DNA of 33,523 nucleotides, from positions 1 through 33,523 of the forward strand of contig NZ_JHBV01000028.1 of the NCBI RefSeq assembly GCF_000724545.1, given 5' to 3'. Position 1 is the stretch's first letter. Each line of letters opens with the position of its first letter. Shown in pieces: positions 7,251-33,523 of the stretch. The DNA is from Aureispira sp. CCB-QB1. Its GTDB lineage: Bacteria > Bacteroidota > Bacteroidia > Chitinophagales > Saprospiraceae. A program made the position numbers and the translations under genes. Below the pieces are notes generated by a model. It did not search any database. It worked only from the letters and a program-made list of their open reading frames with translations, and was not told where the DNA came from.

Positions 7251-7730
7251 CCACGAAAGGGCTTAAATGTTTGTTAGATAAGATGCTGTTTAGATGAACA
7301 ATTGCTGGTCTTTATTGTCTTTAATGGTGTAACACATAGAATAAGGCTTTTGTAAAAAAAAAGAGAGTTTTAAGATAAAAAAAAGACTTGTTTCTTTTTT
7401 TGAAAATGAATCGAACAAACGTTTGATAAGATTATAAATTATTGTAATATTAAATAATATTAAAAAGAAAGAAGTTTATTGAATTGTTGTGTAATATGTA
7501 TTAATTTGAAGACTCGAGAAGACAGTAGAAATGAATCATAATCATTTCCCCGAATCTTCCAATTAGTATATTTTAATTAACAGCTAATTTTACATAGGAT
7601 GCTTTTTTGATGAGACACCCAAAGAAGCAATGAATAGAACGCCATATTGCTACAATATTACAAGTACGGGCAAGTATCTAATTTATTTGGATAAGTGGGG
7701 CGTTAATTCAATGAACTATTATTATTTCAA
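7251..7730. other. long non-coding stretch between tetR and the beta-oxidation genes
   Basis: This is the first ~480 bases of the 657-bp spacer and is strongly AT-rich. It holds a weak A/T hairpin around 7378-7406 (AAAAAAAGA / TCTTTTTTT) that might end tetR transcription, the degenerate operator at 7410-7427, and a small hairpin arm at 7709-7720 belonging to the structured element that follows. No convincing ORF was found: a 48-codon frame from 7630 to 7776 runs into the element and has no family resemblance. Confidence 0.6.
7410..7427. promoter_or_regulatory. degenerate TetR operator-like site
   Basis: GAACAAACGTTTGATA matches 13 of 16 positions of the operator core AAACGAACGTTTGGTA upstream of tetR, and contains the palindrome CAAACGTTTG with no 2-bp centre. 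It lies about 480 bp before the FadN-like gene, so it could allow the same repressor to act on that operon, with lower affinity. Confidence 0.4.
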
Positions 7731-7869
7731 TAGTTCGTTGAAAAACTTTATTAGTTTGATAATTAACAAGTTATAATTTTATTGCATTTTGCGTTAAAAA
7801 TTTGATTATCAAACTAATATAAGTGTGCTTTTTTGTCTTTTGGTAAAAAAGTAAAAAATCAACGAACTA
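7731..7869 (+). repeat. three-helix structured intergenic element, copy E1
   Basis: The outer helix P1 pairs 7731-7741 with 7859-7869 (11 perfect bp). Inner helix P2 pairs 7749-7766 with 7802-7819 (18 bp, one wobble) around a 35-nt loop. The A/T-rich helix P3 pairs 7829-7841 with 7846-7858 and abuts P1. This is a three-way-junction layout. Element E2 at 16574-16714 has the same architecture with compensated sequence changes. E1 ends 38 bp before the FadN-like ATG and would be in its 5' leader if transcription begins upstream. The strand is given relative to that gene. Confidence 0.8.
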
Positions 7870-7907
7870 CTAATTATTTAACACCATTCTAAAATTATTA
7901 AACAAGG

Positions 7908-16109: not shown

Positions 16110-16573
16110 AAAGTAAATTTAGGCGATAGTTTTGAAAACAACAACCCGAAACGTGCGCTATGGATTTTAGGCAGCAGTATTAATATCGTAGAATGTAGCT
16201 ATGATAGTATTTGCATATTCTAAATTAGAATAGTTTTTTTGCTGAAAAATGACTTTTAATTATTGGCTCTTATTAGTTTGATTGTTAGTTTTTTAGATTT
16301 GTTTCTTTTGTTCTGAACTTACAATTGATTTCTGATAAAGTTAAAAATATGTTTTTTTAGCTTATTAGTAATAAATGTATCTTAGCCTCAAGCTAGTGAT
16401 TTGAGACAAAGGGAAACTAAATTAGCGAATATAGAAGCATAAAAGCGTTAAAGTCGAGTCGTTTTAAGTTAAGTGGTGTTGATTATTGACTTCAAATCAA
16501 TAAATGTATATATTATTAAATTTGTTATCTAATAAATGAATTAGCATTTTTGTCTTTCAATTACATTTTACAT
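16110..16573. other. AT-rich non-coding stretch upstream of element E2
   Basis: This is part of a ~1030-bp gene-free region. It contains the palindrome TATTCTAA-A-TTAGAATA at 16216-16232, followed by GTTTTTTT, which could be an operator or a weak terminator, and a 5-bp hairpin near 16393-16411. No ORF or RNA gene was recognised. Confidence 0.5.
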
Positions 16574-16714
16574 TACTTCGTGGGGAAATCGCATTATTTT
16601 GATTATCAATAGAATATGTTTTTGCTGCTTGCTTCTTTAAAGAGTTGATAATCAAAATGATGTAAAGATGCTTTTTTAGTTTTTTACAAAAAAAACTAAA
16701 AAATCCACGAAGTA
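16574..16714 (+). repeat. three-helix structured intergenic element, copy E2
   Basis: P1 pairs 16574-16583 with 16705-16714 (plus one G-T pair inward). P2 pairs 16592-16609 with 16645-16662 (18 bp, one wobble) around a 35-nt loop. P3 pairs 16672-16685 with 16690-16703 (14 perfect A/T-rich bp) and abuts P1. Spacer and loop lengths equal those in E1 (7 nt and 35 nt). Both copies are followed by TACTAATT. E2 lies about 425 bp before the O-antigen-ligase gene and upstream of its likely promoter, so it is not necessarily in that gene's transcript. Confidence 0.8.
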
Positions 16715-17139
16715 CTAATTTTAATAACGTTTATATTGGTGGGAGTTGAAGCGGTATTTTCAGAAGGAATAAATTTAACATCTTCGACAACAAATAGACC
16801 TTGATTCTCCTATTAGAATAGATTATCTTTGTACTGTATTTTGAACACAGTATAAAAGCCTCAAATGTAGATAAATATAAGGTTTGTTAGCTCTTTTATA
16901 TTTTTGTAAATAAAATAATTTAGTAGCAAATCAATGATTTAACTAGAATGCAATTTCGAAATTGAATTATATTTTCTGTGTAGAACATCTATAAGTGCCT
17001 AGTAGTAACAAATGCCTATTAAAAATATCACAAGTTTATAGACTAAATAACATAGAACTGAGGCAATGTGTTTACTCCGTTTTGAGGCGTTTATGATGAA
17101 GAGGTACTTTTAAATCGTATTAACAATAATTTTTACTAC
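16715..17139. other. leader and promoter region of the O-antigen-ligase gene
   Basis: Apart from the promoter at 16801-16831 this stretch holds a small hairpin right after it (TACTGT/ACAGTA, 16832-16852) and then about 285 bases of AT-rich sequence without clear structure or ORF. Confidence 0.5.
16801..16831 (+). promoter_or_regulatory. candidate Bacteroidota sigma-A promoter upstream of the ligase gene
   Basis: TTG (-33) is followed after 20 nt by TATCTTTG, an exact match to TAnnTTTG. It would produce a 5' leader of roughly 300 nt that begins with a short hairpin. Confidence 0.5.
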
Positions 17140-25425: not shown

Positions 25426-28400
25426 ATGATTGCAAAGCAATTAAAACTACTAAAAATGAAACTATTTTCTTTTCTTTTACTCTTTTGTACCCTGCAAATT
25501 AGTTATGGGCAGGGGGTAAGCTTAGCACAGGGAACTGCGCTTATCCATTCAGGGCAATCAACAGCCTTTGAGGAAAATAAAGGTCAAATTCGGGATATAG
25601 AAGGCAATAGAGCACCCTATGTTCATTATCGTTACAAACAGGGAGGAACGAGCGTTTTTATGCTATCGACAGGAATTGCTTATCAGTTTAGCAAGGTTAA
25701 CGATGTCAATGCTGCTAATTCAAATGATAATAAATGGAGGGAAGCCTCTCCGAAATCAGTTGATTTAGAAACTTACCGAATGGATATGCGTTTGGTTGGT
25801 GCTAATTCAAATGCTATTATTAAAGCGGAAGAGGAACAGGAGAATTACATCAATTATTACAATGAAAATAGACTAGACATTCATAGTTATGGTAAATTAA
25901 CTTACAAAGACATTTATCCTGGAATCGATTGGGTGATATACACAACAGATAAAGGGTTGAAATATGACTTTGTAGTACATCCAGGCGCTGATCCTGCGCA
26001 AATTCAGTTAGCGTTTGAGCACCATGAAGGACTACAGCTTAATAAAAATGGTAGTTTTACACTATCTAATTCTATGGGAACAATTACAGAGCAGGCTCCT
26101 GTTTCTTTTCAAGGCAAAAAAGAAGTGCGTTCTTCTTTTGAGTTGGAAGGAAATAGCATTCGATTTAAGCTTGGCAATTATGACCCCACCAAAGCCTTGA
26201 TAATCGACCCTAGCCTAATTTGGTCTACTTATTATGGAGGATCAGACTTAGACCGAATTACTGGTTGTGCTACCGATGCTAATGGAAATATTTTTGTATC
26301 TGGTTACAGTAGATCTACTAGTAATATCGCTTCAGGTGGTCATCAAAATACACATGGAAGTGGCACTGAAGATGCGTTTTTGGTTAAATTTAATAGCAAT
26401 GGCGTTCGTCAATGGGCAACGTATTACGGTGGTACAGGTAGTGATATAGGGAATGGTTGTGCTGTAGATCCCAGTGGCAATATTTACCTAGCAGGGTATA
26501 CCCGTTCTACGAATAACATCGCTTCAAGTGGTCATCAAAATACGTATGGAGGTGGCGAAGATGCGTTCTTGGTCAAATTTAACACAAACGGTACTCGTCA
26601 GTGGGCAACCTATTATGGTGGTATAGGCAGTGATGTTGGAGATGGTTGTGCTATAGATGCCAATGGCAATGTCTTTATAGTAGGAAGAGCACAGTCTACT
26701 AGTAGTATCGCTTCAGGTGGTCATCAAAATATACATGGAGGAGGGACTTCAGATGCTTTTTTGGTAAAGTTTAATAGTAATGGTACGCGTCAGTGGGCAA
26801 CCTATTATGGTGGTGCAGATACAGAAATATTTCTTAATTGTACAGCAGATGCTAATGGCAATTCGTATATAACGGGTATCACACGTTCTGCGAATAACAT
26901 TGCTTCAAGTGGGCATCAAAATACCTATGGAGGTGGCGAAGATGCTTTTCTCGTAAAGTTTAATAGTAATGGCGTTCGTCAATGGGGAACTTATTATGGT
27001 ACTGCTGGTGATGATAATGGTAATGCTTGTGTTGCAGATGCCAATGGAAATATCTTTTTGATAGGTTCAACAGAATCTACTACGAATATGGCTTCAGGCG
27101 GTCATCAGAATACTTATGGAGGTGGTAGCCAAGATGCCTTTTTAGTAAAGTTTAATAGCAGTGGTGTGCGTCAATGGGGAACTTATTACGGAGGTAGTTC
27201 TTCTGATGTTGGCGGATATGGGACGATACATACCAATGGAAATATATTCTTAGGAGGTTTTTCGGCATCTACTAGTAATATCGCTTCAGGTGGTCATCAA
27301 AATACGCATGGAGGTAGTCAAGATGCTTTTCTAGTTGAATTTAATACGAATGGTGTGCGTCAATGGGCAACTTATTTGGGTGGAAGTGCTAGTGATATAG
27401 GGAGAGGTTGTGTTGTCGATGCCAATGGTCATGTTTATTTGGCAGGACACACAAGCTCTACAAGTGGTATTGCATTAAGTGGTCATCAAAATACTTATGG
27501 AGGTGGTTTTGTGGATGGATTTTTGGCAAAATTAACAACAACTACAAGTACGGCTTGTAATCCAACAACCAACAGTATCTCTGCAACAGCTTGCGGTTCC
27601 TATACTTATAATGGACAAACCTATACCAATTCAGGAGTATATATGGATACCTTAACAAATGCTGGTGGGTGTGACTCTATCGTAACACTTAATCTGACGA
27701 TTGGAGGAGCTACTTATGATGTATCCGCTATTACTTACACTTCAATAAATGCTACTGGTGGAACATCCGTTAATTTAGGAGATGATGCTTTAAGTGCAAG
27801 TCTACCAATTGGATTTGATTTTAACTTTTTTGGAAACACATACAATGATTTTAGAATTAGCTCCAATGGTTTTATAACATTTGGAACGAATACGACTACT
27901 AGTGGTTGTTGTTCAGGGCAGGTATTGCCAAATACCAACCAACCTAATAACTTAATCGCTTTGTTTTGGGAAGATTTGTTGCCACCGAATGGAGGAACAA
28001 TTCGTTACCTTACAGCAGGAACAGCACCAAATAGAGTTTTGGTCGTAGAGTTTGTTGACATAGAACATCACCCTAGTGGAGACAGTGTACAAGGGCAAAT
28101 TCATATTTACGAAAGTACCAACATCATCGAAGTGCATGTTGCAAAACAACCGGCAGCAGGCAGACACACATTGGGAATTGAAAATGGAACAGGAGTATTG
28201 GGATATAGTGCGCCTAATAGAAATGGCATAGCATGGACCATTGCGACCCCTGAAGCTTGGCGTTTTGCTCCTGTTGTTGGTGGGGTAGACGTGCAAACGG
28301 CTTGTAGTAACTACACTTGGATTGATGGAAAAACGTATACAAGTAGCAATAATACAGCAACACACATTATACAAGGAGGTTCTTGGACTGGATGTGATTC

Positions 28401-31005
28401 TGTGGTGCAATTGGATTTAATTATTTATAATACACCAGGAGGCAATGGTACCCTATCCGAAAATATGGAAGGAGGAGCACTTATTTCAGGAACTGGTTAT
28501 TCACGAGAATTGACGAACGCTTACTTTTATAACCCTAATAATATATCAGAAGCCAATTTCTCTTCTTTAGAGGGTTCGTTGTACGGTTATGGACAAACAG
28601 GAGGATTTGTCAATTCAGACCGTTCTATTCGCTTTAGAACTTATGCGATACCTGCGGGCAATGAAATGGCTATTGTAATGAAGAAAGTCGATTTGGATTG
28701 TAATGCTCAAGTGTCTTTTTCTTACGCACATCAAAATTACTTAGGGAATGTCGATACCATGCAAGTAGAAGTTTCTACGGATTGTGGGGCAACATGGACA
28801 ACTGTATGGATGAAATCAGGAGCGGATTTAGCAACTGCGGGAGCAAGTACAAGCAACTTTCTTCCTCCATTTACGGCTTCTGATTGGGTGCGAGATACGG
28901 CCGACTTGTCAGCTTACAGTAATATGCCAGATGTGATTGTGAAATTTACAGTGTTGTCGGGATATGGCAACAACATTTATTTAGATGATATTAATATTAC
29001 TTCTTCTTTGGGGTATGCGACTAGAACCGTAACTGCTTGTAATAGCTATTCATTTAATGGGCAGGTGTATATGAATTCAGGTATTTATGTAGATACTGTT
29101 AGTACACCAGGGACTTGTGATTCGGTTATAACGTTAGATTTAACGATCAACAACTCTACAACAGGAACAGACGTACAAACGGCTTGCGATACGTACACAT
29201 GGATAGATGGGAATACGTACACGAGTTCTAATAATACAGCAACCCATACTTTGACGAATGCAGTAGGTTGTGATAGTGTGGTAACGTTGAACTTGACGAT
29301 CAATAACTCTACAACAGGAACAGACGTACAAACGGCTTGTAATACGTACACATGGATAGATGGAAACACGTACACGAGTTCTAACAACACAGCAACCCAT
29401 ACTTTGACGAATGCAGCAGGTTGTGATAGTGTGGTGACCTTGAATCTGACGATCAACACGCCAACAACAGGAACAGACGTACAAACGGCTTGTAACACAT
29501 ACACATGGATAGATGGGAATACGTACACAAGTTCTAACAACACAGCAACACATACTTTGACGAATGCAGTAGGTTGTGATAGTGTGGTGACCTTGAATCT
29601 GACGATCAACACGCCAACAACAGGAACAGATGTACAAACAGCTTGTGATACGTACACATGGATAGATGGGAACACGTACACAAGTTCTAACAACACAGCA
29701 ACGCATATTTTGACGAATGCAGCAGGTTGTGATAGTGTGGTAACCTTGAATTTGACAATCAATAACTCTACAACGGGAACAGACGTACAAACGGCTTGTA
29801 ACACATACACATGGATAGATGGGAATACGTACACAAGTTCTAACAACACAGCAACCCATACTTTGACGAATGCAGTAGGTTGTGATAGTGTGGTGACCTT
29901 GAATCTGACGATCAACACGCCAACAACAGGAACAGACGTACAAACAGCTTGTAATACGTACACATGGATAGATGGGAATACGTACACGAGTTCTAACAAC
30001 ACAGCAACGCATACTTTGACGAATGCAGCAGGTTGTGATAGTGTGGTAACATTGAACTTGACGATCAACACGCCAACAACAGGAACAGATGTACAAACGG
30101 CTTGCGATACGTACACATGGATAGATGGAAATACGTATACGAGTTCTAACAACACAGCAACACATACTTTGACGAATGCAGCAGGTTGTGATAGTGTGGT
30201 AACGTTGAACTTGACGATCAACAACTCTACAACAGGAACAGACGTACAAGCGGCTTGCGATACGTACACATGGATAGATGGGAATACGTACACAAGTTCT
30301 AACAACACAGCAACGCATACTTTGACGAATGCAGTAGGTTGTGATAGTGTGGTGACCTTGAATCTGACGATCAACAACTCTACAACGGGAACAGACGTAC
30401 AAACGGCTTGTGATACGTACACATGGATAGATGGGAATACCTACACGAGTTCTAACAACACAGCAACGCATACTTTGACGAATGCAGCAGGTTGTGATAG
30501 TGTGGTGACTTTGAATCTGACGATTACTACAGTAGATACAACCGTAAGTCAGAATGGTTTAACTTTAACAGCAAACCAAACTGGAGCTACTTATCAATGG
30601 GTAGATTGTAACAATGGAAATACAGCAATTGCTGGGGCGACTGGGCAAAGTTTTACACCAGTAGCAAATGGCGATTATGCAGTGATGATTACCTTTAATA
30701 ATTGTACTGGCACGTCAAGTTGTTTTAATGTAGTTGTGAATGCACTACCAACGGTAGAAGAGGGGATCAAACAGGTTCGTGTATATCCCAATCCAACAAC
30801 AGGACAGGTTAATATAGAATTAGAAGAGGTGTTAAAACAAGGCGTGGCTCGATTGATGGATGTAAATGGACGTTTATTGTTAGAGCAACCTATAGATGGT
30901 AAGCAGTTCATTCAATTGAATATAGAGGCGTTGCCAACAGCTGTTTATTTCTTAGAGTTGCAAAGTTTAAAAGGTGTTTATAGCCAAAAAATTATTAAAG
31001 AATAA
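25426..31005 (+). CDS. giant T9SS-exported adhesin with SBBP propeller and 51-residue repeats
   Basis: This 1859-residue protein may start at 25426 or, more in keeping with a signal peptide (MKLFSFLLLFCTLQISYGQ), at 25456. After an N-terminal beta-rich domain opening with ENKGQIRD (DUF7948-like) there are seven SBBP units of ~63 residues (~267-703; core ATYYGG-GSD...GNIYLAGYT...GHQNTYGGG-DAFLVKFN-NG-RQW), expected to close as a beta-propeller. Next come one TACGSYTYNG repeat, a NIDO-like domain (~763-950), a jelly-roll anchor-type domain (~1005-1190), nine tandem 51-residue TDVQTAC(D/N)TYTWIDG repeats (1248-1700), and a type A T9SS sorting domain (VYPNPTTGQ near 1786). It is almost certainly a surface adhesin; its ligand is not readable. 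A good promoter precedes it. Confidence 0.92.
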   Translation: MIAKQLKLLKMKLFSFLLLFCTLQISYGQGVSLAQGTALIHSGQSTAFEENKGQIRDIEGNRAPYVHYRYKQGGTSVFMLSTGIAYQFSKVNDVNAANSNDNKWREASPKSVDLETYRMDMRLVGANSNAIIKAEEEQENYINYYNENRLDIHSYGKLTYKDIYPGIDWVIYTTDKGLKYDFVVHPGADPAQIQLAFEHHEGLQLNKNGSFTLSNSMGTITEQAPVSFQGKKEVRSSFELEGNSIRFKLGNYDPTKALIIDPSLIWSTYYGGSDLDRITGCATDANGNIFVSGYSRSTSNIASGGHQNTHGSGTEDAFLVKFNSNGVRQWATYYGGTGSDIGNGCAVDPSGNIYLAGYTRSTNNIASSGHQNTYGGGEDAFLVKFNTNGTRQWATYYGGIGSDVGDGCAIDANGNVFIVGRAQSTSSIASGGHQNIHGGGTSDAFLVKFNSNGTRQWATYYGGADTEIFLNCTADANGNSYITGITRSANNIASSGHQNTYGGGEDAFLVKFNSNGVRQWGTYYGTAGDDNGNACVADANGNIFLIGSTESTTNMASGGHQNTYGGGSQDAFLVKFNSSGVRQWGTYYGGSSSDVGGYGTIHTNGNIFLGGFSASTSNIASGGHQNTHGGSQDAFLVEFNTNGVRQWATYLGGSASDIGRGCVVDANGHVYLAGHTSSTSGIALSGHQNTYGGGFVDGFLAKLTTTTSTACNPTTNSISATACGSYTYNGQTYTNSGVYMDTLTNAGGCDSIVTLNLTIGGATYDVSAITYTSINATGGTSVNLGDDALSASLPIGFDFNFFGNTYNDFRISSNGFITFGTNTTTSGCCSGQVLPNTNQPNNLIALFWEDLLPPNGGTIRYLTAGTAPNRVLVVEFVDIEHHPSGDSVQGQIHIYESTNIIEVHVAKQPAAGRHTLGIENGTGVLGYSAPNRNGIAWTIATPEAWRFAPVVGGVDVQTACSNYTWIDGKTYTSSNNTATHIIQGGSWTGCDSVVQLDLIIYNTPGGNGTLSENMEGGALISGTGYSRELTNAYFYNPNNISEANFSSLEGSLYGYGQTGGFVNSDRSIRFRTYAIPAGNEMAIVMKKVDLDCNAQVSFSYAHQNYLGNVDTMQVEVSTDCGATWTTVWMKSGADLATAGASTSNFLPPFTASDWVRDTADLSAYSNMPDVIVKFTVLSGYGNNIYLDDINITSSLGYATRTVTACNSYSFNGQVYMNSGIYVDTVSTPGTCDSVITLDLTINNSTTGTDVQTACDTYTWIDGNTYTSSNNTATHTLTNAVGCDSVVTLNLTINNSTTGTDVQTACNTYTWIDGNTYTSSNNTATHTLTNAAGCDSVVTLNLTINTPTTGTDVQTACNTYTWIDGNTYTSSNNTATHTLTNAVGCDSVVTLNLTINTPTTGTDVQTACDTYTWIDGNTYTSSNNTATHILTNAAGCDSVVTLNLTINNSTTGTDVQTACNTYTWIDGNTYTSSNNTATHTLTNAVGCDSVVTLNLTINTPTTGTDVQTACNTYTWIDGNTYTSSNNTATHTLTNAAGCDSVVTLNLTINTPTTGTDVQTACDTYTWIDGNTYTSSNNTATHTLTNAAGCDSVVTLNLTINNSTTGTDVQAACDTYTWIDGNTYTSSNNTATHTLTNAVGCDSVVTLNLTINNSTTGTDVQTACDTYTWIDGNTYTSSNNTATHTLTNAAGCDSVVTLNLTITTVDTTVSQNGLTLTANQTGATYQWVDCNNGNTAIAGATGQSFTPVANGDYAVMITFNNCTGTSSCFNVVVNALPTVEEGIKQVRVYPNPTTGQVNIELEEVLKQGVARLMDVNGRLLLEQPIDGKQFIQLNIEALPTAVYFLELQSLKGVYSQKIIKE
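26224..27535 (+). repeat. seven SBBP propeller repeats (coding)
   Basis: Seven units of about 63 codons share (S/A/G)TYYGG near the start and DAFLVKFN-NG-RQW near the end. DNA identity is moderate and uneven, so the array is older than the 153-bp array downstream. Confidence 0.9.
29167..30525 (+). repeat. nine tandem 153-bp repeats (coding)
   Basis: Nine head-to-tail units encode TDVQTAC(D/N)TYTWIDGNTYTSSNNTATHTLTNA(V/A)GCDSVVTLNLTIN. The spacer ends as either NNSTTG or NTPTTG. DNA identity between units is very high. Three degenerate relatives occur earlier in the same gene (near residues 720, 960 and 1205). Each unit holds a conserved cysteine pair, possibly a disulphide. Confidence 0.95.
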
Positions 31006-31200
31006 ATTGCTTGACGAATAACTAACCTTTGACTAGGAGTTTAATACTGTCTCTGGTAGGTTATTAGTAATATAAGAGTTGTTTTTATTAGTAGTTCGTT
31101 GATTACCTGCGGTGCTACTGAGTGGTTGCAACGAACTATTGTTTTATGTAAACGCAACTCTTATTAAGTATAAAAATTGTAAACAACAAAAATATACAAT
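31006..31200. other. spacer between the giant adhesin and the small gene
   Basis: This 195-bp region holds element E3 and little else. No other terminator is evident after the adhesin gene, so E3 may serve that role. Confidence 0.5.
31087..31141 (-). repeat. short reverse-oriented relative of the structured element, E3
   Basis: TAGTTCGTTG (31092-31101) pairs perfectly with CAACGAACTA (31129-31138) around a 27-nt insert. Read on the minus strand, its termini CAATAGTTCGTTG and CAACGAACTACTAAT are identical to those of E1 (7728-7740 and 7860-7874), but helices P2 and P3 are replaced by unrelated sequence. It lies 60 bp before the next gene. Confidence 0.65.
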
Positions 31201-31962: not shown

Positions 31963-33523
31963 ATGATTTTAAATCGACTATTAAAAGTAAGTCTTGTTCT
32001 TTGCTTGCTCATGAACAGTTTTGGAAGTTTTGCAACTTCTCACACTGTTACTAATTTGAATGATACAGGTAGCGGATCATTAAGGGATGTACTCGGTCTT
32101 GTTGCTACTGGTGATACAATTCTATTTTCTAGTACTATGCTTTCTAGCAGTAGCGATACTATAAAACTAAATTCACCACTTATTCTCAATCGGAGTCTTG
32201 TCATTTTAGGACCCAATATGCCTAATTATAAATTGTACCTTAGTGGTCAAACTAGTACCAATATCGCAGAGGTAAGTTTTTCACGATTTAGCCCCCCATT
32301 AGAAATACAAAACCTCGGTTTTATAAACGGATCTACAACACAATTTGGTAAGGGGGGAGCAATTGCGATCCTAGCTTGTAGTGGTATTACTTTAAAAAAA
32401 TGTGAATTCAAAAATAATTCAGCTAATTATGGAGGAGCCATCAATTCTAGCCTTTCTCAAACTTCTGATAAAGATGTTATTATAGAGGAATGTTTGTTTG
32501 ACAATAACTCTAGTACTTCTGGAGGAGGAGCGATTTATTTGACGAGTCATGATGCTTATGCGTTGACATGGAATATCTCCAAGACGACTTTTAGCAACAA
32601 TACAGCTGTTGGTTCTAGACATGGAGGAGCGATTTATTGTCGCAATGGGATTGATAACACCTCATTGCCAACCAAAGATATGACCATAAATATTACAGAA
32701 ACAACCTTTGCAAATAATACAGGGTACGAAGGTGCTGCCTTTTATTCATACCATGATCCTGATGGCACCTACTCAAATACGAATATTACCATTACAAAAT
32801 CTACTTTTACAGGGAATGTAAATACTTACCTAGGAATACATGGTGCCGCTCTTACGGTAACAAGTAGTATTTATGCTACCGCTGCTAGTTTAGGATATTA
32901 TTTAACGATGTATGGATGTAGTGTCGTTGATAATATAGGAAAGGGAATTTACTATGGTAATAGAGGAGGTAATGGCAATATAACAATAGGAAGTAGTATT
33001 TGGGCATTTAATACAAGAGGTGATTTTTATGTTTCTAGAACGTCAGGGGGTAATGGAGGCTCAGCTATATCATCGAGCGGATACAACCTTATTAGTGATG
33101 CTGGGCGGAGTGGAGCGTTGCCAACAGATCAAGTAGGAGTAACGGCTGCGAATGTTAATCTTGGACCACTTCAAAATAATGGAGGTGTAACGGAAACAAG
33201 AATGCCAGGGGTTGGTAGTATTGCGATTAATGCTGGAAATCCTAATGATATGTCAGATGCACAAAATGGCAGTATAGAAGGAGGTCGTAGAGATATTGGA
33301 GCAGCAGAATATGTTTCATGCTTAGTTAACTCCACAACGGGAACAGATGTACAAACAGCTTGTAATACGTACACATGGATAGATGGGAACACGTACACGA
33401 GTTCAAACAACACAGCAACACACACTTTGACGAATGCAGTAGGTTGTGATAGTGTAGTGACGTTAAATCTAACAATCAATAACTCTACAACGGGAACAGA
33501 CGTACAAACGGCTTGCGATACGT
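31963..33523 (+). CDS. second adhesin: beta-helix (choice-of-anchor Q type) plus 51-residue repeats (3' partial)
   Basis: The frame opens with ATG at 31963 and stays open to the window end (520 codons visible, no stop). A signal peptide (MILNRLLKVSLVLCLLMNSFGSFA) is followed by HTVTNLNDTGSGSLRDVL, the standard opening of choice-of-anchor Q/polymorphic outer-membrane-type right-handed beta-helix proteins. Repeated coils follow, such as TFSNNTAVGSRHGGAIYC and TFANNTGYEGAAFYS, ending at RRDIGAAEYVSC. Right after this the protein runs into the same 51-residue TDVQTAC repeat found in the upstream giant adhesin, with one full unit (33343-33495) and the start of a second. A T9SS sorting domain is expected downstream but lies outside the window. 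It is probably a surface adhesin; the ligand is unknown. Confidence 0.9.
   Translation, partial: MILNRLLKVSLVLCLLMNSFGSFATSHTVTNLNDTGSGSLRDVLGLVATGDTILFSSTMLSSSSDTIKLNSPLILNRSLVILGPNMPNYKLYLSGQTSTNIAEVSFSRFSPPLEIQNLGFINGSTTQFGKGGAIAILACSGITLKKCEFKNNSANYGGAINSSLSQTSDKDVIIEECLFDNNSSTSGGGAIYLTSHDAYALTWNISKTTFSNNTAVGSRHGGAIYCRNGIDNTSLPTKDMTINITETTFANNTGYEGAAFYSYHDPDGTYSNTNITITKSTFTGNVNTYLGIHGAALTVTSSIYATAASLGYYLTMYGCSVVDNIGKGIYYGNRGGNGNITIGSSIWAFNTRGDFYVSRTSGGNGGSAISSSGYNLISDAGRSGALPTDQVGVTAANVNLGPLQNNGGVTETRMPGVGSIAINAGNPNDMSDAQNGSIEGGRRDIGAAEYVSCLVNSTTGTDVQTACNTYTWIDGNTYTSSNNTATHTLTNAVGCDSVVTLNLTINNSTTGTDVQTACDT
33343..33523 (+). repeat. 153-bp repeat shared with the upstream adhesin (array cut by window end)
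   Basis: One complete unit (33343-33495) and 28 bases of the next have the same 153-bp period and nearly the same DNA as the units at 29167-30525, in direct orientation and the same reading frame. Confidence 0.93.

Follow-up and report, generated by a model that had tools for sequence, protein, structure and literature searches.

The stretch of DNA analysed here (the window; 33,523 nucleotides of Aureispira sp. CCB-QB1) contains two related three-hairpin elements, E1 and E2, and a third, shorter element with the same ends. E1 is a 145-bp element of subfamily A located at positions 7728-7872 of the plus strand (CAATAGTTCGTTGA...TCAACGAACTACTA; R1, 119.6 bits), and E2, with 147 bp, belongs to subfamily C and occupies positions 16571-16717 of the same strand (CATTACTTCGTGG...CCACGAAGTACTA), elements of this family measuring 145-147 bp with ends CAWTA...TAYTA. 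Both are bordered by perfect direct repeats corresponding to target-site duplications, which are 7 bp long for E1 (ATTATTT at 7721-7727 and 7873-7879) and 6 bp long for E2 (ATTTTA at 16565-16570 and 16718-16723). On the plus strand of E1, the outer helix P1 is formed by pairing of positions 7731-7741 with 7859-7869, whose arms constitute the terminal inverted repeats, and encloses the P2 hairpin (7745-7824), with an apical loop of about 37 nt representing the fast-changing region of the family, and the A/T-rich P3 hairpin (7826-7853), whose loop takes up a 34-nt module in other copies. The extents given in the earlier note (7731-7869 and 16574-16714) hold as the core of the elements and are slightly short of their ends. 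The third element (53 bp; 31089-31141, minus strand) has a different inside and lies between two ATAAAA words at 31083-31088 and 31142-31147. The P2 hairpin of E1 (7749-7819) itself starts and stops like degenerate element ends (TATTAGTTTGA...TCAAACTAATA), a resemblance hinting that the element may have originated by one palindrome nesting within another.

Other repeats are also present in the window. Ten repeat copies with a spacing of 153 bp, the inner ones being 87-92% alike, are found at 28962-30638 within a 1859-aa ORF (25426-31005), perhaps encoding a surface protein, with a further copy at the window end (33328-33523), and 48-bp repeats at positions 1-129 would in one frame read as a His/Asp-rich stretch.

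The three-helix fold described for both E1 and E2, consisting of an outer helix and two hairpins, the inner one long and the third one A/T-rich, was confirmed, as were all five base pairs reported to be changed on both sides between the two copies (G7733-C7867, T7739-A7861, T7749-A7819, G7754-C7814 and A7761-T7807 in E1). Predicted folding energies are -43.4 kcal/mol for E1 (z -7.8) and -46.8 kcal/mol for E2 (z -7.6), and in each case a fold as good was obtained in none of 200 shuffles. Across 25 diverse copies, this structure has 92.1% of cells paired and both-sided changes in 21 of 44 pairs, with 96 doubly changed cells as compared to a shuffled mean of 34.0 and to 9-15 in slid controls, in an alignment that is not structure-aware, that has P3 columns partly out of register and in which kinship alone can beat shuffles without any structure. 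Covariation is real but it separates subfamilies, which keep the three helices through paired changes. Young subfamily-A copies mostly carry one-sided changes: among 32 distinct copies drawn from the own genome and from the same-species genome G040, hence partly orthologous, P1 and P2 contain 17 cells with non-double changes (six G-T, five A-C and six other) and only one double change. Thus, single copies break pairs, and the lineages that continued to move are paired. Hairpin inversion was considered as the source of the swapped middle P2 base between subfamilies A and B and discarded, as the loops align in direct orientation.

The structural proposal of the earlier note depended on the existence of further copies, and these are abundant. 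A profile search of 1,227,042 bases (the window and parts of contigs C41, C16 and C30) revealed 79 loci at E values up to 1e-3, i.e. a density of 64 per Mb; extrapolated to the whole genome, this would amount to about 470 copies. A DNA search of the whole 7.37-Mb genome yielded at least 111 matches, corresponding to at least 40 near-full places, obtained upon scoring 40 of 371 first-look candidates, and 71 short palindrome echoes. A covariance model constructed from the 25 diverse copies, as had been proposed, found matches in four of eight genomes of the genus and in none of 32 genomes from elsewhere in the family and order, with up to 79 candidates scored in each, so that counts per genome are lower bounds. 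DNA matches revealed copies in G040 as well. Scanning with the right-end pattern gave 51 stretches among the matches listed, 48 of them from Aureispira, and the model-matching places in two genus genomes (G001 and G006) include the coordinates of such stretches; the other three, from Capnocytophaga, Bdellovibrionales and Ferruginibacter, have no model match and are attributed to chance. Among the listed open-licence PMC literature (Aureispira with genome or insertion sequence), no title deals with repeats of Aureispira.

Several features indicate that the elements move as DNA. For 50 of the 79 loci, both ends were located, the other 29 being left out, and exact duplications (5 bp or longer) flank 42 of these 50 copies, as compared to about 1.1 with shuffled flanks; the duplications are 5-7 bp long, mostly 6 bp, and the targets are A/T-rich. 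When the 50 own copies were compared with G040, 44 could be mapped by both flanks, of which 38 are shared and six correspond to empty sites in G040. At each of these six sites, G040 has the uninterrupted target with a single copy of the duplication, and five of these are also seen in the alignment at full length, although precise loss in G040 would look like insertion in the own genome. Conversely, unmodified full-length copies specific to G040 were not observed, since each of the eight detected in the G040 blocks has an ortholog in the own genome, which contains 21 unmodified full-length copies, three of them beyond the G040 blocks, with module-bearing copies at alignment breaks left out of this count. 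The ratio of six to none for unshared full-length copies comes from a small sample. An own-only 51-bp element is located at C41 131151, and a G040-only 44-bp palindrome with related ends at C41 255416 is a point against the explanation favoured here. Being short, lacking a transposase gene, having P1 arms as terminal inverted repeats and exhibiting target duplications and empty sites, E1 and E2 are very probably copies of a non-autonomous DNA transposon (MITE) family of the genus Aureispira.

Mobilisation of such elements would depend on a DDE transposase acting in trans and supplied by an insertion sequence (IS) whose left end is nearly identical and whose duplication is of equal length. The own genome contains three DDE_Tnp_1 loci, of which the one on contig C39 is the candidate. 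This IS looks intact (about 1365 bp with a 429-aa ORF), has one match in the own genome, and is delimited by 22-bp inverted repeats (CAATACTTCGTTGAAGTATTAA) with a 6-bp duplication, TTATGC, at its single copy. Its left end, CAATACTTCGTTGAA, shares 14 of the 15 terminal bases with the left end of subfamily A, but agreement with the element right end, TAGTAGTTCGTTGAT, drops to about 11 of 15, which counts against the proposal. The likeness is limited to the terminal 15 bp or so, the structured inside does not come from the IS, and P2 and P3 are not explained by the binding of a transposase to the ends. By its sequence, the transposase appears IS701-like at most: it scores 92.3 bits against NF049999, below the cut-off of 170, and its duplication is 6 bp long rather than the 4 bp of the IS701 family, as given for its member ISTth8 in the table of PMC6352166. 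Partial relatives with a stop are present in G003 and G006 (41% and 40% identity over about 140 and 90 residues, respectively), the decayed IS in G003 having the same kind of ends (CAATACTTCGTTGAAAAATT and CAATAGTTCGTTAAAAATTT), and G008 and G029, both outside the genus, contain matches that are short and weak. The transposase was not found in G001, G002, G004, G005 and G007, nor in G040, although the same query retrieves the own-genome transposase; G001, a draft genome, contains many element copies, which is a further point against the proposed mobiliser. The IS-bearing genome contains unshared full-length copies and the IS-less G040 shows none, which agrees with the mobiliser proposal on the basis of six sites. 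The other two DDE loci (L192 and L193) were rejected as mobilisers due to unrelated ends. An IS with ends TGAGTCATCCCGAATTT is found at L193, ISs with similar ends lie at three strain break points in G040 (L202-L213), and a 468-aa transposase occurs 12 times in G040, two of these by coordinates at those break points. L193 also contains, at about 660-740 on the minus strand, a simple near-perfect hairpin (CAATAGTTAGC...) that shares the end words of the E1 and E2 family and is bordered on either side by ATCCTC, which means that the end words also serve other palindromes.

Persistence of the helices may be explained if only copies with intact ends and intact internal inverted repeats keep moving, these repeats acting either double-stranded or as extruded hairpin DNA, so that the kept fold fits selection for movable copies and not for an RNA at each site. 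The earlier note had taken the conserved pairing as a sign of selection on structure. In one reading of this, the family is a dispersed structured RNA (an sRNA, attenuator, terminator or riboswitch-like element) and selection acts on the RNA fold at each site, mobility having merely spread it. Strong covariation across copies is in line with this, and a selected plus-strand RNA should give more G-T than A-C mismatches. In the 30 pairs of P1 and P2 from 72 copies, 68 G-T and 42 A-C mismatches were counted, of which one fixed pair, favouring the plus strand, supplies 26 of the G-T, leaving 42 against 42 without it; among 26 non-redundant copies the values are 36 and 26, with 11 G-T coming from this same pair. 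Since G-T and A-C are thus equal in P1 and P2 apart from one fixed pair, selection on an RNA of one strand is unsupported. Single-sequence folds of E1 and E2 are both better on the plus strand, and P3 changes in subfamily A comprise seven G-T and no A-C, which favours an RNA and goes against the DNA explanation, whereas alifold energies of the two strands are alike (-62.4 for plus and -64.5 for minus). Orientation relative to same-strand neighbouring genes is unbiased, with 20 copies with and 19 against the genes for the 79 loci using a simple ORF caller, by which 77 of the 79 also lie outside ORFs as compared to a random expectation of 15% intergenic. The comparison with Rfam that had been suggested gave no match at gathering for any of 4227 families over the window, and a permissive search of E1 gave two weak matches nearby, far below gathering. 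Furthermore, modules interrupt the helices in many copies, and the strains differ at 1.3% of element sites other than the loop, near the value of four-fold degenerate sites, so that the element is not clearly constrained in place. An RNA selected at each site is hence quite unlikely. Of the two possibilities that the earlier note had joined, a dispersed structured RNA or a MITE-like family, it is the second that is borne out by inverted repeats, target duplications, empty sites and intergenic location, and the fold, though confirmed, is apparently maintained at the DNA level.

Covariation could also arise by mutation without selection, if template switching between the palindrome arms copies changes across. 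The arms are indeed long near-perfect palindromes and complementary inserts occur at matching spots of both P2 arms, but the 17 non-double changes against one double change in subfamily A reveal that the arms are not quickly corrected, and one target word present in both arms also explains the same insert in both, making such copying improbable. The family further shares with the REPINs of Pseudomonas, described in PMC3116915, the character of mobile hairpin DNA with conserved ends, a variable spacer and compensatory changes. Movement as REP/REPIN-type single-stranded hairpins by a RAYT would be consistent with high-copy intergenic palindromes whose inner spacer is less conserved and which undergo compensatory changes, all as in the parts of PMC3116915 consulted. 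REPINs are moved by RAYT, and RAYT was not found in the own genome: Y1 transposase (PF01797) has no match there, the same search being positive in five of 14 control genomes, which argues against a REP/RAYT system. REPINs are not known to generate target-site duplications on insertion, whereas the Aureispira copies have such duplications, and this mode of movement is extremely unlikely.

One of the distinguishing features of this MITE family is the rapid change of the P2 loop. Among the 32 subfamily-A copies, variation per site is about 1% in the arms as compared to 17.7% in the P2 loop, and in five other small groups (4-7 copies, some from one genome) the pairwise contrast of loop versus arm is 4.8- to 35-fold. 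Comparison of 38 orthologous pairs between the own genome and G040, 30 of them with the loop, replaces an 8-pair count (loop 18/288) and revealed differences at 51 of 1111 loop sites (4.6%), as compared to 69 of 5385 sites outside the loop (1.3%), 241 of 30239 in the 400-bp flanks (0.8%) and, in C41 and C30, 905 of 74985 four-fold degenerate sites (1.2%) and 822 of 117467 intergenic sites (0.7%). The loop of E1 is identical in G040 and that of E2 has one change. At the same time, palindromic inserts of 20-38 nt are present in many copies at the P1/P2 junction, in either P2 arm, in the P3 loop or at the P3/P1 junction, and 12 of the 38 shared copies differ between the two strains in the presence of such inserts, at fixed places, the direction of change being unpolarised. 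These differences comprise nine longer G040 copies (20-58 nt) and three module swaps; for example, the 5' P2 arm of E2 is extended by 22 bases in its G040 ortholog. A thirteenth shared copy is split by an unrelated element. Two copies of an element of about 250 bp (CAGCGGTTCTAACGATAAACGG...) that is unrelated to the family, and absent from the own genome there, are seen near 6299100 and 6580200 of C1 in G040 (L244 and L259).

The loop and the inner modules would be dispensable for movement, and they may be altered in place by point mutation along with short exchanges among the hundreds of copies. Regarding the fast loop and the modules only, there is about an even chance that all of this change is due to ectopic gene conversion between copies without a raised mutation rate. 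Changes are clustered, with eight, eight and six in three copies (variance/mean 2.8 for the 30 loops), modules are found repeatedly at identical positions, accompanied by a linked base in the case of one kind, and the loop of copy 20 in G040 is exactly that of own copy 36, from which it follows that exchange between copies contributes. However, transitions account for 47 of the 51 loop changes between orthologs, as compared to 73% at four-fold sites (p 0.0015) and to 76% between non-orthologous copies (p 0.007, with differences treated as independent). Leaving aside the three copies with the most changes, 29 of 999 loop sites (2.9%) still differ, which is above the 1.2% of four-fold sites (p 3e-5). 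Moreover, copies 19 and 26 each differ by two modules, with the loop between them unchanged in copy 19 and changed only by a 2-nt T-run in copy 26. A more tentative reading, possible if rather doubtful, is that of a self-diversifying mobile palindrome, in which the central loop undergoes transition mutagenesis in place and mini-modules of 20-38 nt insert and excise at fixed target words (e.g. upstream of AAACT), thereby forming a second, smaller mobile tier.

In its general features the Aureispira family resembles bacterial MITEs such as Correia/NEMIS, ERIC, RUP, Nezha, Chunjie and QMITE in being short, non-coding, mostly intergenic, hairpin-rich and present in many copies, with inverted ends and target duplication, and RUP and Nezha are tied to ISs by common ends in the parts consulted of PMC2229807, PMC10969869 and PMC3049150. 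It differs from these MITEs by an interior of three hairpins in a branched arrangement, which covariation maintains across several subfamilies and species, by a loop faster than four-fold sites and by interchangeable 20-38-nt modules at fixed places, and such a branched fold, fast loop and modules are described for none of the MITEs in the same parts of these three articles. As a modular composite repeat it is also like BOX of Streptococcus pneumoniae, composed of boxA, a variable boxB and boxC, where according to a portion of PMC3049150 the inner module can be absent or multiplied with little disruption of the outer fold; BOX varies by the tandem number of boxB, whereas the Aureispira family varies by different palindromic modules at several separate junctions and loops. 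Given the compensatory changes and variable spacer of REPINs and the modularity of BOX, as far as described in those portions, each Aureispira feature has a parallel. Thus, the MITE family is of a known kind, and what is uncommon is the measurable, fast and localised internal change. Strong covariation over dispersed intergenic copies need not imply a functional RNA, as here mismatch symmetry, the lack of orientation bias and target duplications together point to DNA. With two genomes as close as these, the insertion of MITEs, changes in the loop and the gain or loss of modules can all be counted and set against the usual rate of mutation, so that the diversification of palindromic repeats becomes directly testable.
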